From the NCBI RefSeq assembly GCF_018811945.1, contig NZ_JACRVU010000003.1:186001-250000 (forward strand): 64,000 nt of DNA, given 5' to 3'. This DNA is from Gluconobacter sp. P1C6_b (GTDB lineage Bacteria > Pseudomonadota > Alphaproteobacteria > Acetobacterales > Acetobacteraceae). A model generated the notes under the pieces. That model saw only the letters and a program-made list of their open reading frames with translations. It was not told the DNA's origin and ran no database searches. This document shows positions 43,234 through 50,513 of this stretch, in pieces. Positions within the stretch are counted from its first letter, which is position 1, and each line of letters begins with the position of its first letter. A program made the position numbers and the translations under genes.

Positions 43234-44547
43234 TCAGCCTTCCGGCTGTAGAATGCGGTTCGGGTGCAGCAGTTCGAACCGCTCCAGATCCGCGGAGAAA
43301 AGACGGACCTGCACGTCCATCCCGTCTTCGCGATCCGTCCGACCAACCACTTCGCCATGCTGGTAAAGCCAGGCGAGGGCCGCGCCGTCCGTGATCGGAA
43401 GACGCACTTCCACGGATTTCATCGATCGCGTCAGATACTGGTCCAGGATCTCGAACAGATCCGGTAGCCCCTCGCCCGTAATGGCCGAGATCGCCACCGC
43501 GTTTTCACGCTTCGGCACAGCCTCGACACCGCCGACCAGATCGGCCTTGTTCAGCACTTCGATCGTGCGGTCCGGCCAGTGCGCGTCGAGCATCCCGTCC
43601 CGCACCATGCCGTCCAGCACGTTCAGCACATCCGCCCGCTGGGCGGCACTGTCAGGATGTGAGATGTCACGGACATGCAGGATCACATCCGCCTGCGCCA
43701 CTTCCTCAAGCGTCGCACGGAAGGCCGCGATCAGTTCAGTGGGCAGTTCACTGATGAATCCCACAGTATCGGACAGGATCACATTACGGCCCGACGGCAG
43801 GCGCAGCCCGCGCATCGTCGGGTCCAGCGTGGCGAAAAGCTGGTCCTGCGCATGGACGGATGCCCCCGTCAGGGCATTGAACAGCGTGGATTTCCCCGCG
43901 TTGGTATAGCCCACCAGAGCCACGACCGGGAACGGCACGCGCTTGCGGGAGTCACGATGCAGACCGCGCGTCCGGCGCACCTGCTCCAGCTCTTTCTTGA
44001 TCTTGCCGATGCGCTCGGCCAGCATCCGGCGATCCGCTTCCATCTGCGTTTCACCCGGGCCGCCAAGGAAGCCGAAACCACCGCGCTGACGCTCAAGATG
44101 GGTCCACAGCCGGACAAGACGCGAGCGCTGGTATTCCAGATGGGCCAGCTCGACCTGAAGTACACCTTCACGGGTCGCCGCGCGCGCCCCGAAAATATCG
44201 AGGATCAGCCCCGTCCGGTCCACGACCTTGCAGCCCAGAGCCTTCTCGAGATTGCGCTGCTGCCCCGGAGACAGACGCGCATCAATGACAACCACATCCA
44301 CATTGTCGAGCTTGACCGCTTCGGCCAGCTGTTCGACCTGACCGCTTCCCAGCAGGGTCGCCGGACGGCGGGCGCGCAGCAGAATGGCCGCCTGACGCAC
44401 CACGACCAGCCCGATCGACGCCGTCAGCCCGACCGCTTCTTCAAGCCGCGCATCGGCCGCGCGGATTTCCTCCTGCGGTCCCGACTTCTCCCAGGGCAGG
44501 ATGACGGCCGCACGGGTTGCAGGTTTTTTGGTGTCGAAACCGCTCAA
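43234..44547 (-). CDS. hflX: GTPase HflX
   Basis: Ribosome-associated GTPase that splits stalled ribosomes. The 437-aa protein has the N-terminal HflX domain ('[20 protein letters not shown]', '[17 protein letters not shown]'), the coiled linker with '[15 protein letters not shown]', and the GTPase domain with G1 '[12 protein letters not shown]', G3 'DTVGFI' and G4 'NKAD'. The stop is 11 bp past the convergent opgC stop. Its start overlaps hfq (ATGA), the classic hfq-hflX pair. Confidence 0.97.
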
Positions 44548-44798
44548 AGTTCTTCTTCCACAAAATGGGACATGGCCGCCACCGGCATGATCGTGCTGAC
44601 AGCGTGTTTGTAGACAAGCTGCACATGGCCATCACGACGGAGCAGCAGGGTGTGCGCATCGGACTGGGCAACGATGCCCTGAAGCTTCACGCCGTTGACC
44701 AGAAAGACGGTCACGGACGCTTCGGTCCTGCGCAGATGGTCGAGGAAAACCTCCTGCACGGCCCGGGAGCCGGCAGAAGAGGAAGGTTCTGAAGTCAC
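44544..44798 (-). CDS. hfq: RNA chaperone Hfq
   Basis: Hexameric Sm-like protein that pairs small RNAs with mRNAs. The 84-aa length is usual for alphaproteobacteria. Sm1 motif '[20 protein letters not shown]' and Sm2 motif '[10 protein letters not shown]' are intact. The N-terminus carries a short Ser-rich lead before '[12 protein letters not shown]'. It lies between ntrX and hflX, the order typical of alphaproteobacteria. Confidence 0.97.
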
Positions 44799-44846: not shown

Positions 44847-46259
44847 TCAGCCACTCACCGGCGTGGAAGGTGCGGTATTACGCTCTTCATTCGTCGTCAC
44901 CCCAAGCTGCTTGAGCTTGCGGTGCAGTGCACTGCGCTCCATGCAGACGAAGCTGGCCGTCCGGCTGATATTGCCGCCAAACCGCATGAGCTGCACCTGA
45001 AGATACTGCGTCTCGAACAGGTCCCGCGCCTCACGCAGCGGCAGACTCATGACATCCGCTCCGGAATTCAGGCGCGTCATCGAGGGTGCGCCCTGGCTGA
45101 TGGTGGCCGGCAGCATGTCAGCCCGGATCGGATCATTCCCCGTCCCTGGCATCATGATCAGCAGCCGTTCCATCAGATTGCGCAATTCACGCACATTGCC
45201 AGGCCATTCATAGGATTGCAGGGCGGCGAGCGCATCCACGGAGAGTTCCCGGACCGGAAGGCCGGAAGACTGAGCACAGCGCTCAAGGAAATGCCGCGCC
45301 AGACCCGGAATATCCTCGCGCCGTTCGCGCAGGGACGGAATGCGCAGAGGAACAACCGCAAGGCGGTAATACAGGTCCTCGCGGAAGCGGTGCGCGGCGA
45401 TTTCGGACTGGAGATCCCGGTTGGTGGTGGCGATGACACGGATGTCCACCTTCACCCGGGTATTGCCGCCCAGACGCTCGAATGTCTGATCCTGAAGCGC
45501 ACGAACGATCTTGCCCTGCGTTTCAGGCGGCATGTCGGCGACCTCGTCCAGCAGCAGCGTCCCGCGATGGGCCCGCTCCAGCACGCCGCGGCGCATCGGC
45601 TGACCGTCCTCACCCTCAAGGCCGAAAAGCTCTTCTTCGAATCGGTTGGGCGCCAGTGTGGCACAGTTCAGGGCAATGAACGGCCCTTCCGCACGGCGGG
45701 AGCGCGCATGGATCATGCGAGCTGCCACTTCCTTGCCCGATCCGGCCGGACCGCTGATCAGCACGCGGGAATTGGTGGGGGCGACACGCTCGATCTGGGC
45801 ACGAACGGCCGAAATAACGGCGCCGTCCCCCGACAGCGTCGTCTCCGGACCGGCCCGCAGACGCAGTTCCGCATTCTCCCGCCGAAGCCGCGCGGCTTCC
45901 AGCGCACGCCGCACCACGACCAGAAGCCGGTCCGACTGGAACGGCTTCTCGATGAAGTCATAAGCTCCGAGCTTGAGGCTGGATACCGCCGTCTCGATGG
46001 TCCCGTGACCAGAAATCATCAGCGTCGGCAGGCCCGGCTCCTCGGTCTGGAAGATCTTGAGGAGTTCGATCCCGTCCAGCCGGGATCCCTGAAGCCAGAT
46101 ATCCAGAATCGCCAGCGACGGACAATGCGCACGGAAGAGTTCGAGCGCCTGATCCGAATTGGCGGCGGTCCGGGTCTTGTAGCCCTCGTCGTTCAGAATG
46201 CCCTCGATGAGAAACCGGATATCCGGTTCGTCATCGACGATCAGGATCTCATGTTCCAT
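44847..46259 (-). CDS. ntrX: Response regulator NtrX
   Basis: NtrC-family regulator of 470 aa and partner of NtrY. The receiver domain (1-120) has phospho-acceptor Asp53 in 'LAILDIWL'. The AAA+ domain has Walker A 'GPAGSGKE' and Walker B 'GTLLLDEVAD'. A Fis-type helix-turn-helix is at the C-terminus ('ISRTASFVCMERSALHRKLK'). The GAFTGA loop needed to contact sigma-54 is replaced ('LFGLEGEDGQPMRRG'), as in other alphaproteobacterial NtrX, so it probably acts on sigma-70-type promoters. It overlaps ntrY by 11 bp. Confidence 0.92.
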   Translation of the reverse strand: MEHEILIVDDEPDIRFLIEGILNDEGYKTRTAANSDQALELFRAHCPSLAILDIWLQGSRLDGIELLKIFQTEEPGLPTLMISGHGTIETAVSSLKLGAYDFIEKPFQSDRLLVVVRRALEAARLRRENAELRLRAGPETTLSGDGAVISAVRAQIERVAPTNSRVLISGPAGSGKEVAARMIHARSRRAEGPFIALNCATLAPNRFEEELFGLEGEDGQPMRRGVLERAHRGTLLLDEVADMPPETQGKIVRALQDQTFERLGGNTRVKVDIRVIATTNRDLQSEIAAHRFREDLYYRLAVVPLRIPSLRERREDIPGLARHFLERCAQSSGLPVRELSVDALAALQSYEWPGNVRELRNLMERLLIMMPGTGNDPIRADMLPATISQGAPSMTRLNSGADVMSLPLREARDLFETQYLQVQLMRFGGNISRTASFVCMERSALHRKLKQLGVTTNEERNTAPSTPVSG

Positions 46260-48636
46260 CTGCTGTCCTCATGGTCTGAAGGTCCGTTCCACCCGGGACA
46301 TGGCTCTCCTGCTCCCATAACGGCAGGGACAGGGTGACACGCGTTCCCCGCTGCCCGGGCGACGCGCCACGGGACTGGTCTGGTGCCCGATCAGTGAGTT
46401 GAAGCATCCCGGAATGGTCCTCCATGATCTTCTTGACGATCGCAAGGCCGAGGCCGGTGCCCTTCGCCTTGTGGGTTACATAAGGCTCGGTCAGCCGGTG
46501 GCGTTCCACCGTCGGCAGGCCGATCCCGTCATCTTCTATGTCTAGCAGGACATGCCCGCTGCGAATGTGCAAGCCCACCACAATGTGTCCAATTGGCTGC
46601 ACTGGCTGCCCGGAAGCATTTTCTCCCGGTTTTCCGCGGCCTGCCATGCTGATGGCATCAGCGGCATTCTGTAGAAGGTTTGTCAGCGCCTGGCCGATGA
46701 GTCGCCGGTCACAGCGCACGATCGGCCCAGAGGGCGGCAGTCCGGTCGTCTCGAACACGATTTCGGGATGAGCGTTCCGCTGGAGCACCAGCGCCTCCCG
46801 GCAAAGCCGTGAAAAGTCTTCCGGCTGCATGACGGGCTGCGGCATCCGCGCAAAGGCGGAGAACTCGTCCACCATGCGCCCGATGTCTCCGACCTGCCGC
46901 ACGATCGTGTCCACAAGCTGCGTATAGGTCTCGGGGTCGGAGTGAATTTCCTTGAGGAAGCGCCGTTTGAGCCGCTCTGCCGCAAGCTGGATCGGGGTCA
47001 GCGGATTCTTGATCTCGTGCGCCACACGCCGCGCCACATCGGCCCAGGCCGCCTTTCGCTGTGCGGACTGAAGGTCCGTGATGTCATCGAAGGTCACGAC
47101 ATAGCCCGCGACCTCCTGCCCCCGCAGCTCCGCCACGACCCGCACGAGAAGCGTCCGCCCCGCACCGGCCCCTGCGCCCTCACCCGGACCACCCGGACGC
47201 TGCGCGCCTTCCGTATCCACCTGGATTTCGGCGGTATGGACACGCTCTGGCGCCATGCGGGCGGCCTCCAGAAGGCCCGAGAACTCCGGCACACGATCCG
47301 TCAGCTTCATCCCAATGGCTGGCTGAAGATCGCGCTGGAGCACGCTGGACGCCGCGCGGTTCGGCAGTTCGATGACCTGCATCCGGTCCAGCCCGATCAC
47401 ACCGGCCGATACACCGGCCAGCACGGTCTCGGTAAAACGGCGGCGCTCATTGATCTGATCATAGGCCTGCATCAGTTCGGAACGCTGGCTTTCGAGCTGG
47501 TCCGTCATGCTGTTGAAAGCGCGGGACAGGCCCGTCACTTCGTCGTCCTTGTCCTGCCCCGCATCGTCGGGGACGGGCACCCGCACCCCCAGATCGCCTT
47601 TGGAAATCCGCTGGGCTGCCAGAATGAGCAGTCCGAGCGGGTTTGCAATACGGTTCGCCAGCGCCAGTCCGGTCAGCATTCCGACGGCCAGCACCAGCAG
47701 GCCCATCAGGGCGAAAATGACCGCGAACAGGACCTGCGTCTTGCCGCGATTGGTGATCAGCCGCTGGTAATCCGCCACCAGCGTATCCGTGCGGCGCATG
47801 TGTTCCACGACATCCGGGTCAACCGGACGCGTTATAACCAGCATGAGACCGGAATTGCCGCCCAGTGCGACCACGGCACGCACCCTGCGCTGATCCGGGC
47901 GGTCGAGAATCACGGCTTCGCCATGTCGTGCCAGTTCCACCACGGATTTGGGTGGCAATGGCGGTGCAGTCGTCATGTCAGCATCGCTGCCCAGCAGACC
48001 GCCCACCGCCAGAACCTTGTAGGTCAGCGGATCGAACACCTCTGCATCTGTCAGGCCGCGCTCGGTGACTTCATCGTCCAGGAACTCCTGAAGACGTGCG
48101 GGATCGTGAAAAAGATCAGTCCCACGGGAGAAAAGCTCGTCGTTCTGGACGGTAATGAGCGTGTTCGCGAGCGCGAAAGCTTCCGTCCGTGCGTTGTCGT
48201 TATGCTCCTGCAAATAGCCGACCGCGACGGACCGCGCCTCGTTCAGCGCATCGTTGACACGGTTGGAGAACCAGATTTCCACGCCGTAATGGAAGAACAG
48301 CGTCGCGACTGCTCCCACCACGATGGTCGGAGCAACAGCCACGATGCCGAACAGCGTGATCAGCCGGACATGCAGCCGTGCGCCAGCCAGACCAAGCCTG
48401 CGCTCGGCCAGCATCCGCCCGATCTGCACCACGGCCGCCGCCGCAATCAGCATGAGCATGATAAAGTCGAGCAGAAAGACGATCGCCTGCACCTGTGGGC
48501 GATGCGCCAGAGACATGCCCCCCGACAGCACGACGAACGTCGCAAAGGCGAGCACCAGCGCCATGACTGTCAGAAGAACCGCCCCATTGGCACTCGTCAG
48601 CCTTGCAAACAGGCGCCTCAGGGAAGGAAGTCTCAC
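46249..48636 (-). CDS. ntrY: Membrane sensor histidine kinase NtrY
   Basis: The 795-aa sensor has three or four N-terminal membrane helices (about residues 15-110 and 305-330) around a periplasmic domain. A HAMP domain follows ('LALANRIANPLGLLILAAQR'), then PAS, HisKA with phospho-acceptor His in 'RRVAHEIKNPLTPIQLAAER', and an ATPase domain with 'NLLQNAADAISMAGRG' and 'DIEDDGIGLP'. It controls NtrX; the signal (nitrogen or redox state in relatives) is inferred. It overlaps both neighbours. Confidence 0.95.
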   Translation of the reverse strand: MRLPSLRRLFARLTSANGAVLLTVMALVLAFATFVVLSGGMSLAHRPQVQAIVFLLDFIMLMLIAAAAVVQIGRMLAERRLGLAGARLHVRLITLFGIVAVAPTIVVGAVATLFFHYGVEIWFSNRVNDALNEARSVAVGYLQEHNDNARTEAFALANTLITVQNDELFSRGTDLFHDPARLQEFLDDEVTERGLTDAEVFDPLTYKVLAVGGLLGSDADMTTAPPLPPKSVVELARHGEAVILDRPDQRRVRAVVALGGNSGLMLVITRPVDPDVVEHMRRTDTLVADYQRLITNRGKTQVLFAVIFALMGLLVLAVGMLTGLALANRIANPLGLLILAAQRISKGDLGVRVPVPDDAGQDKDDEVTGLSRAFNSMTDQLESQRSELMQAYDQINERRRFTETVLAGVSAGVIGLDRMQVIELPNRAASSVLQRDLQPAIGMKLTDRVPEFSGLLEAARMAPERVHTAEIQVDTEGAQRPGGPGEGAGAGAGRTLLVRVVAELRGQEVAGYVVTFDDITDLQSAQRKAAWADVARRVAHEIKNPLTPIQLAAERLKRRFLKEIHSDPETYTQLVDTIVRQVGDIGRMVDEFSAFARMPQPVMQPEDFSRLCREALVLQRNAHPEIVFETTGLPPSGPIVRCDRRLIGQALTNLLQNAADAISMAGRGKPGENASGQPVQPIGHIVVGLHIRSGHVLLDIEDDGIGLPTVERHRLTEPYVTHKAKGTGLGLAIVKKIMEDHSGMLQLTDRAPDQSRGASPGQRGTRVTLSLPLWEQESHVPGGTDLQTMRTADGT

Positions 48637-49373
48637 TCGTCGATGCCTTTCGGGATCGTGATGTCCAGTTCACGGATGCGCTTGCGCAGGGTGTTGCGGT
48701 TTACACCCAGAATGGCGGCAGCGCGCAACTGGTTACCGCAGGTCCGCCGCAGAACCATCGTGATCAGCGGCCGTTCGACCTCGCCCACCACACAGGCATG
48801 CAGATCACCCGCCCCGTTTTCCAGATCGCCTTCAAGATATTCAGCCAGGGGCCGTTCCAGCGCCCGCTCCAACCCGCGGGGACGCGCCGTGCCTGTGCCA
48901 GCCGCCAGCCGACAGACCGCGCTGATCCGCTCCGGCCCCAAACGCTGCGCAGAGGGCAGCGCCGACAGCCAGCGATGCAGGGCTGTGGACAATCCCCCCT
49001 GCCGGAGCAGAAGAACAGGATCGTGACGGCTCCCCGCGATCACGCGCAGATCCGTGCCCTCCTGTGCGAGCCATTCCATGAACCGGTCCTGCATCAGGGG
49101 GCACAGACAGTCGATCTCATCCAGCAGCAGGGTCCCGCCCTGCGCCTGCTGGATCCAGCCGGCCTCACCATTTCCGAAAAGGGCCGCTTCACGAAGCGCG
49201 CGCGGCGTCGCGGTCAGGGCGGCAATCACAAACGGATTTTGTGCACGCGGGCTGTGACTGTGCAATCGCCGGGCAACATCCTGCCGGTCCAGGCGGGACG
49301 CGCCGTACAGGAACACCGGATGGCAGCCCTGCTCGACCAGACCTGAAGCAGACTGCTCCGTCATGGCTGACAC
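48633..49373 (-). CDS. Degenerate NtrC-like regulator lacking receiver domain and Walker A
   Basis: The 246-aa protein occupies the ntrC position and is coupled to ntrY (ATGA). It has no receiver domain and begins directly in a shrunken AAA+ region. The Walker A position reads 'GASRLDRQ' instead of GxxGxGK, Walker B-like 'GGTLLLDEID' persists (about 79-88), and no GAFTGA loop or arginine-finger region is apparent. A Fis-type helix-turn-helix survives ('LRAAAILGVNRNTLRKRIRE'). It probably binds DNA but should not hydrolyse ATP, be phosphorylated or activate sigma-54. The frame is open and GC3-rich, so it appears maintained. Confidence 0.85.
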   Translation of the reverse strand: MSAMTEQSASGLVEQGCHPVFLYGASRLDRQDVARRLHSHSPRAQNPFVIAALTATPRALREAALFGNGEAGWIQQAQGGTLLLDEIDCLCPLMQDRFMEWLAQEGTDLRVIAGSRHDPVLLLRQGGLSTALHRWLSALPSAQRLGPERISAVCRLAAGTGTARPRGLERALERPLAEYLEGDLENGAGDLHACVVGEVERPLITMVLRRTCGNQLRAAAILGVNRNTLRKRIRELDITIPKGIDE

Positions 49374-49397
49374 GGAAGGGCCGGACGTCTCACGCCC

Positions 49398-50513
49398 TCA
49401 GGCCGCTTCACGCGTGCCGTCGCGGCTCAGACTGCCCGTCGGGCCGGCCTCACGGTTGCGCACGACACCGGCCTCAATATGACGGTCATAGAATGCAGTC
49501 AGCAGCGCAATGGCCTCGGCTGCGCTCTCAACACCATTGATGGTAGAGCGGAACGTCGCAGAGCCCGGCAGCCCGGCGGAATACCAGGAGACATGCTTGC
49601 GCGCGAGACGCAGGCCCGGCCGTTCGCCGAAATGATCGAGCATCATCCGGTAATGCCGCAGGGCGATTTCCTTTTCGGTCGCCAGATCCGGGTCGAGCAC
49701 ATCTTCACCGGTCCGCAGGGACTGCGCCACCTGCGCCGTAAACCATGGCCGTCCATAACACCCGCGCCCGATCATGACGCCATCGGCCTGCGACTGGTGC
49801 AGTGCCTCCCGCGCATCGCGAATGGTGTTGATGTCTCCGTTGACGATGACCGGCAGCGAGACCGCGTCCTTCACCGTTTTAACGAAACGCCAGTCCGCCG
49901 TGCCGTTATAGAACATCTGCCGGGTGCGACCGTGGACGGTCACAAGCCGGATTCCGCTCTCTTCCGCGATCTTCGCCAGACGCGGTGCATTGAGCGAATT
50001 GTGGTCCCAGCCCATGCGCATCTTGAGCGTCACCGGCACATTCACGGCCCGCGCTGTCGCTTCGAGCAGCTTCCCGGCCAGAACCTCGTCCCGCATCAGC
50101 GCAGAACCAGCCATCTGCCCGATCGCGACCTTCTTCACCGGGCAGCCGAAATTGATGTCAATGAGGTTCGCGCCCCCATCCACCGAAATCTTCGCTGCCT
50201 GCGCCATGGCCTCGGGATCACATCCGGCAAGCTGGACCGCATTTGGCCCCCGCTCGGCCATCCGCGCCATGCGCATGGTGTTCTCGTTCTCGCGGATCAT
50301 CGCCCAGGACGCGATCATTTCCGACACGACGAGTCCTGCCCCGAGATCACGGGCAAGCTGACGGAACGGTAGATCCGTAACACCCGAAAGCGGAGCAAGG
50401 ATCACCGGATCCTCGATCACCACGCCCTGTCCCAGATCGATGGGTTTCAGGACACGGTTCGGGGGTGCAGCGGCAGGCGCATCAGGAGCGGCGGAAGGAG
50501 CGGAAGCAGTCAT
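49398..50513 (-). CDS. dusB: tRNA-dihydrouridine synthase DusB (NifR3)
   Basis: FMN-dependent enzyme that reduces uridine to dihydrouridine in tRNA. The 371-aa protein has '[20 protein letters not shown]' near residue 38, catalytic Cys in 'NFGCPVKKV', '[10 protein letters not shown]', '[17 protein letters not shown]' and '[11 protein letters not shown]'. An Ala/Pro-rich lead of about 22 aa precedes the core. It starts the ntr cluster, as nifR3 does in other alphaproteobacteria, but no ntrB lies between it and the ntrC remnant (24-bp gap). Confidence 0.95.

Follow-up and report, generated by a model that had tools for sequence, protein, structure and literature searches.

A selected Fis-like remnant of NtrC between dusB and ntrY in Gluconobacter, a probable stage in the stepwise shrinking of a response regulator

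Fis, an abundant nucleoid protein that bends DNA and is controlled by growth phase, is held, reportedly by Morett and Bork in 1998, to descend from NtrC, and a Fis-type DNA-binding domain is also carried by FleQ and VpsR. The link between Fis and NtrC and the dusB-fis operon are treated in excerpts of PMC7166090, PMC11407668 and PMC7482072. According to excerpts of PMC10274813, the NtrC of Caulobacter lacks the GAFTGA motif, activates and represses at sigma-70 promoters and yields a chromatin immunoprecipitation motif related to the Fis motif; in complex medium, alleles without the receiver or the AAA domain gave worse growth than the null. The nucleoid-associated protein GapR and this NtrC have overlapping sites (extract of PMC12421884). 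The present analysis concerns a gene between dusB and ntrY in a stretch of Gluconobacter sp. P1C6_b (contig NZ_JACRVU010000003.1); "the window" is this whole stretch of 64,000 nucleotides, coordinates are window positions, and G000 is the source genome, in which the window lies on contig 23. The sequence of the gene, termed here the relic, marks it as the presumptive surviving end of ntrC after loss of ntrB, the receiver, ATP hydrolysis and the contact with sigma-54. Its product is probably a constitutive, Fis-like DNA-binding regulator, independent of phosphorylation, ATP and sigma-54.

The relic and its parts were placed as follows.

48633..49373, minus strand: NtrC remnant of 246 amino acids, GTG start with an alternative ATG at 49364 (codon 4), from Pfam/NCBIfam and alignment
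48894..49325, minus strand: pseudo-AAA core, residues 17-160, from Pfam PF00158/PF14532, the AlphaFold2 model and Foldseek
49281..49304, minus strand: GASRLDRQ at the place where GxxGxGK is expected, from sequence and alignments
49113..49130, minus strand: Walker B-like strand LLLDEI, from sequence and alignments
48657..48881, minus strand: Fis-type dimerisation and DNA-binding domain, residues 165-239, from a PDB sequence match, model helices and the ratio of nonsynonymous to synonymous substitution rates (dN/dS)
48669..48731, minus strand: helix-turn-helix with recognition helix NRNTLRKRIREL, from PF02954 and alignments

The earlier note had described an open frame of 246 amino acids starting 24 bp after dusB and overlapping ntrY, which lacked receiver, P-loop and GAFTGA and retained a Walker B-like strand and a Fis-type helix-turn-helix. 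The open reading frame coordinates agree (24-bp gap; 4-bp overlap with ntrY, GTGA), and the Pfam/NCBIfam searches and inspection of the sequence bear out the domain losses. Pfam and NCBIfam assigned a partial sigma-54 AAA domain to residues 17-105 and HTH_8 to residues 197-235; no receiver domain with a phospho-acceptor Asp was found by these searches or in the sequence. Neither a Walker A motif, in whose place GASRLDRQ stands, nor a GAFTGA loop was present in the sequence and alignments, and LLLDEID survives. The relic matched the NtrC model at 96 bits against a cut-off of 559 bits. The AlphaFold2 model (24 alignment rows, mean predicted local distance difference test score 74, predicted template modelling score 0.58) has a four-stranded alpha/beta core without lid, P-loop or GAFTGA, followed by C-terminal helices at residues 168-181, 188-210, 215-222 and 226-235; confidence was low over residues 159-189, which contain the first of these helices. 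Foldseek matched the model to NtrX, ZraR and other NtrC-family AAA domains, with NtrX of Brucella as the best match. The best PDB sequence matches were Fis entries (relic 170-235 on E. coli Fis 29-94), and the domain is of the Fis type carrying the recognition helix of NtrC. Seven of ten residues that we take to be the DNA contacts of Fis are identical in the relic (N73, R76, N84, R85, T87, R89 and K90).

All 19 loci titled Gluconobacter (one a metagenome bin) have the relic in place between dusB and ntrY with an open frame; the G. oxydans NBRC 14819 copy shares 97-98% identity with that of the window. Matches running from residue 19 or earlier to residue 240 or later were obtained in 16 of 249 family genomes, in all 16 between dusB and ntrY. 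dN/dS was calculated by the Nei-Gojobori method for the window against 19 relatives; no ratio was obtained where synonymous sites were saturated, which concerned L034 (whole gene and each half) and, in the AAA half, L036 and L037. The ratio was 0.037-0.149 for the whole gene, 0.025-0.141 for the AAA remnant where computable, 0-0.108 for the DNA-binding domain and 0-0.157 for the 32-residue helix-turn-helix alone (0.157 in one pair); with two other reference genomes it reached 0.147 for the AAA remnant and 0.114 for the domain. The neighbours gave 0.010-0.060 (dusB), 0.018-0.091 (ntrY) and 0.007-0.051 (ntrX). No stop or frameshift was present in 20 Gluconobacter relic genes, and the motif NRNTLRK was invariant in all 32 compared rows of the family whose slot between dusB and ntrY is filled. 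The relic is clearly under purifying selection in both halves; since it is also in place and open in all 19 Gluconobacter loci, it is not a chance open reading frame. A dying remnant whose frame stays open just to couple translation between dusB and ntrY would agree with the 4-bp overlaps with ntrY, with two lineages that lack the gene and with its faster change than that of its neighbours, and is made very improbable by the ratios of gene and domain, the intact frames and the invariant motif. Decay as such was ruled out by dN/dS and the open frames, and the proposal that the frame is kept in sister species stood, with the qualification that two related lineages have lost the gene wholly.

The Gluconobacter genome (99.99% complete) was searched for ntrB, ntrC and rpoN. 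No full ntrC was found in it: the best match to TIGR01818 (E 3.8e-104) was about as strong as that of NtrX (352 bits), far under the cut-off of 558.6 bits. No match exceeded the NF008293 cut-off for ntrB, a cut-off passed by only one of 14 control genomes; because it fails in the other 13, the NtrB proteins of four family genomes were also compared with a set of kinase open reading frames from G000. The five best matches of each were 27-31% identical at 72-89 bits; the NtrB of G060 scored 333-598 bits against five other NtrB proteins. No cognate NtrB kinase for the relic was found by profile, by this comparison or by reading the slot. One other pair of kinase and NtrC-like regulator was met (G000 contig 1, about 336.8-339.2 kb; L261 2270-4660; 401 and 394 amino acids), with a P-loop, without GAFTGA and with an HlyD-family gene alongside; at 23-30% identity to the NtrB and NtrC of relatives it was rejected as NtrBC. 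A full ntrBC elsewhere in the genome was rejected on the profile results and the NtrB comparison, which supports the view in the earlier note that NtrBC has been dismantled, with no ntrB and no full ntrC found and NtrYX as the only full Ntr pair found. The third gene sought, rpoN, was found, with its full set of three Pfam domains. PF00158 gave eight matches, of which five were examined and three weaker ones, in frames of 507-871 amino acids, were left out; among the five, GAFTGA occurred only in PspF and was missing from NtrX, the relic, the contig 1 regulator and an AAA protein. Judged from these five, sigma-54 use beyond the phage-shock response may be small in this genome. The gene for PspF adjoins pspA (G000 contig 29; locus L001, 667-2511), both over curated cut-offs.

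The slot was read in 35 loci of the family besides the window, several of them in draft genomes; G210 was dropped, as its contig runs on for 3.8 kb after dusB without any ntr gene. Of the 35 loci, 13 carry NtrB together with a full-length NtrC. In G048 a frame of 585 amino acids has LARGVRNP in its NtrB part where LAHEVKNP is expected, so that the phospho-accepting histidine is gone, and its NtrC (531 amino acids) is without a clean P-loop or GAFTGA; this locus (L122) looks like the stage just before the loss of both NtrB and NtrC. Ten further loci have no NtrB and a receiverless NtrC of 309-349 amino acids, with a P-loop match in four (G022, G008, G079 and G037) and none in six. A form of 246-277 amino acids is present in six loci besides the window, the slot gene of G025 has only 95 amino acids and amounts to the DNA-binding domain alone, and in G116, G029 and G066 no gene was found in the slot. 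No TIGR01818 match over the cut-off was obtained in 49 of 249 family genomes, part of which were inspected at the slot. In a tree of DusB, NtrY and NtrX (68 rows), G048 adjoins 21 NtrB-less acetic rows, which a branch with support 97 sets apart from the rest; G025 branches from within the receiverless forms, and the empty genomes, in two places, from within the forms of 246-277 amino acids. Because the dusB-ntrYX slot is shared, the relic is counted as a descendant of ntrC, and related acetic acid bacteria show the same gene at successive shrinking stages in one slot, the relic of the window being one of them.

Genes for the DNA-binding domain alone were also found outside the acetic acid bacteria. 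A search with the 95-residue G025 protein among 40 relatives gave short frames in four other families, and a model made from those four families was run over the class (385 genomes, 305 matching; results are from the matches listed). Reading of the slots gave the order dusB, a gene of 86-105 codons, ntrY, with no ntrB, in at least nine genomes of seven other alphaproteobacterial families (G250, G261, G254, G253/G566/G486, G347, G553 and G362). Four of the nine short genes are rows of the search model itself, and the G250 frame has 109 amino acids from an upstream start and 87 from the likely ATG. ntrX comes next in eight of the nine; the stretch read in G254 did not show it. Short frames of G595, G346, G318, G598 and G404 were rejected as contig-edge pieces of NtrC and were kept out of the tree, as were nine further relic genomes and the class genomes below the matches listed. 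A pseudo-AAA core that, like the AAA domain of FleQ or VpsR, senses a ligand such as a nucleotide second messenger and so controls DNA binding would account for the conservation of the core without a P-loop and for the VpsR and FleQ AAA domains among its sequence and fold matches. Neither G025 nor any of the nine non-acetic genomes has the core, and a ligand-binding motif is purely hypothetical; such a sensor is decidedly unlikely.

A single origin of all ten domain-only genes was rejected (approximately unbiased test, p-AU 2.7e-49). For the nine non-acetic genes the rejection of one origin is weaker (p 0.011) and is subject to long branches and an unusual composition. Tested separately, a single clade is compatible with the data for the six small-genome rows (p 0.77) and likewise for the three others (p 0.80). 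Neither grouping had been recovered in the quick tree, so that counts of changes are inexact, and the groups were named after tree inspection. The trees were quick, with long branches and uneven composition, and the long-branch rows G256, G266 and G402 were removed for the clade tests. The domain-only genes arose separately at least twice, which is firm, and likely three times. In another alphaproteobacterial family, G367 (L239) has a receiverless NtrC of 355 amino acids with a P-loop, without GAFTGA and without ntrB; its sequence points to a separate case of the first reduction steps.

rpoN was present in 15 of 40 genomes tested. It was absent from 10 of 12 relic genomes, three of 10 receiverless genomes and all three with an empty slot, and present in G000, G218, G025 and seven receiverless genomes. 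Among 13 family genomes with a full-length NtrC, GAFTGA or GAFSGA was retained in four of the five with rpoN (not in G048), and the motif was lost in seven of the eight without it, G073 having GAFAGA. Within genus g41 (L133, L135, L136 and L138), G214 has rpoN and GAFTGA, and G246, G040 and G122 have neither. As rpoN is missing from 10 of the 12 relic genomes, the relic cannot generally depend on sigma-54. Its domain losses, its intact Fis/NtrC-type domain, its selected place in the dusB-ntrYX operon and its independence of both NtrB and sigma-54 are thereby shown. PII genes were counted as well: a single one in each of 15 NtrB-less genomes, against two in one and three in the other of the pair of NtrBC genomes tested, where the extra genes include a second sequence type. 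The PII gene of G000 (contig 1) is followed by an ammonium transporter, which stands directly after PII in three of four NtrB-less loci inspected. An NtrB-linked PII seems to have been lost too, the contrast being one of two genomes only.

As a constitutive DNA-binding regulator, the relic would bind DNA as a Fis-like dimer and, at sigma-70 promoters, would repress, co-activate or bend the DNA. Its amount, through co-expression with dusB and ntrYX, could replace phosphorylation as the control, and the pseudo-AAA core is probably an assembly or protein-contact surface; other lineages retain the DNA-binding domain alone. The suggestion in the earlier note that the NtrC remnant became a phosphorylation-independent protein gains from the loss of receiver and kinase and from the intact, selected DNA-binding domain; a part as repressor or nucleoid-type protein at old NtrC sites, also suggested there, would be conjectural.

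Several observations weigh against this reading. The slot gene is completely absent from two related lineages, by dN/dS the relic changes more quickly than its neighbours dusB, ntrY and ntrX, and its AAA remnant is also under selection in Gluconobacter, which indicates some role that a protein acting purely as Fis would leave unexplained. The enterobacterial NtrC palindrome is TGCAC-N7-GTGCA; one copy was found in the Gluconobacter genome, equal to the reversed control. The 420 bp preceding PII genes were scanned for GCAC-N6-9-GTGC: five genomes of the genus had no such site, and 20 PII genes from 17 genomes yielded a single one, in G025. As the NtrBC genomes G030 and G060 had none either, this second test is without a positive control and says little. 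On the curated Fis model the relic domain alone scored 57 bits, below the 99-bit cut-off (E. coli Fis 181), and below the 80 bits of an ordinary alphaproteobacterial NtrC C-terminus. Finally, DNA-binding Caulobacter NtrC without the receiver or AAA domain gave no growth on ammonium (excerpts of PMC10274813).

For each of the ten short proteins the best-scoring model was one of two Fis models (52-76 bits, all below the cut-off), and the same held for an ordinary NtrC C-terminus (80 bits). Since an ordinary NtrC C-terminus scores higher, the Fis-model score is non-diagnostic and was rejected as proof of kinship with Fis. A 94-column tree of the domain, with long branches, did not place E. coli Fis. 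E. coli Fis is 24% identical to the C-terminus of E. coli NtrC and on average 34% identical to those of 36 full-length alphaproteobacterial NtrC proteins; these identities appear in line with the older proposal of descent, no more.

The genes around the relic were placed as follows.

49398..50513, minus strand: dusB (nifR3), TIGR00737 at 381 bits over a cut-off of 293
46249..48636, minus strand: ntrY sensor kinase, complete, with NtrY_N, HAMP, HisKA and HATPase_c
44847..46259, minus strand: ntrX response regulator, complete, with the expected domains, passing its curated cut-off (692 of 600 bits)
44544..44798, minus strand: hfq, downstream on the same strand as dusB, relic, ntrY and ntrX

NtrY and NtrX both have their expected domains and NtrX exceeds its curated cut-off, as expected from the claim that NtrYX is intact. 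GAFTGA is missing from NtrX of the window, as from all 66 NtrX proteins compared. The 4-bp overlap of relic and ntrY recurs in many of the genomes compared. In G126 (L124, 2253-4618) ntrY is read in two overlapping frames of 274 and 543 amino acids, and as one frame in its close relative G046; a frameshift or an assembly error is possible. The relic could instead be chiefly a partner of NtrYX, with its pseudo-AAA core joining NtrX oligomers or the relic competing with NtrX for DNA. Its place just before ntrY with the frequent overlap, the selected AAA remnant and the best Foldseek match to Brucella NtrX would fit; the position is, however, simply the ancestral place of ntrC, lineages with the domain alone hold it without an AAA core, and the Foldseek matches cover NtrC-family AAA domains generally. 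We regard a partnership of this kind as unlikely, and prefer a constitutive DNA-binding regulator.

Taken more widely, and tentatively, the slot after dusB may be a recurrent birthplace of Fis-like proteins. Once control by NtrB and sigma-54 is lost, NtrC would shrink to a free-standing constitutive DNA-binding regulator, probably at least three times in Alphaproteobacteria (acetic acid bacteria, small-genome lineages and the group of G347, G553 and G362); the Fis proteins of other proteobacteria would represent an earlier case of this path, and the protein of the window a living, selected intermediate. The step from NtrC to Fis has so far been inferred between two end points, and here the steps coexist in living bacteria in the same slot: sigma-54 contact lost, kinase dead, receiver lost, ATPase eroded and a Fis-sized protein. 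With this series, bench work can address how a signal-controlled activator becomes a constitutive DNA binder and which is acquired earlier, a regulon or a nucleoid role. It would also imply nitrogen control without the NtrB-NtrC arm in acetic acid bacteria of the relic clade.

Among the literature matches listed, which cover few subscription papers, no receiverless or Fis-sized NtrC was met in acetic acid bacteria or other alphaproteobacteria. Excerpts report NtrB and a 1443-bp ntrC in Acetobacter pasteurianus Ab3 (PMC5017713), ntrB and ntrC in Gluconacetobacter diazotrophicus (PMC2765452) and ntrB, ntrC, ntrX and ntrY in Komagataeibacter rhaeticus (PMC8970348). In an excerpt on G. oxydans NL71, some NtrC-family gene is up-regulated with inhibitors (PMC5403930). 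Nothing relevant to the relic was met in excerpts of PMC12753109 and PMC5756330 or in PMC6191907.

Compared with the alphaproteobacterial NtrC (NR-I), the relic occupies the same operon slot and has a homologous AAA core and a near-identical recognition helix, but is without receiver, P-loop, GAFTGA, lid and partner kinase. In E. coli K-12 fis starts 25 bp after dusB, and the Gluconobacter relic 24 bp after it; the DNA-binding domains are homologous by sequence, and that of the relic has four helices in the model (the first at low confidence). Fis has about 98 amino acids and consists of the domain only, whereas the relic has 246, with a pseudo-AAA core and ntrYX still following; the size of Fis is matched by the G025 protein (95 amino acids) and the nine genes of 86-105 codons, not by the relic. 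The NtrC proteins of Caulobacter and Rhodobacter capsulatus likewise have no sigma-54 contact loop and act at sigma-70 promoters; unlike the relic, Caulobacter retains NtrB, receiver and ATPase, with all three NtrC domains needed for growth on ammonium, and NtrC of R. capsulatus reportedly requires phosphorylation (excerpts of PMC10274813). FleQ and VpsR, divergent NtrC-family AAA proteins, are among the sequence and fold matches of the relic, but their AAA domains are full-size and, by the titles of structure entries, bind cyclic di-GMP.

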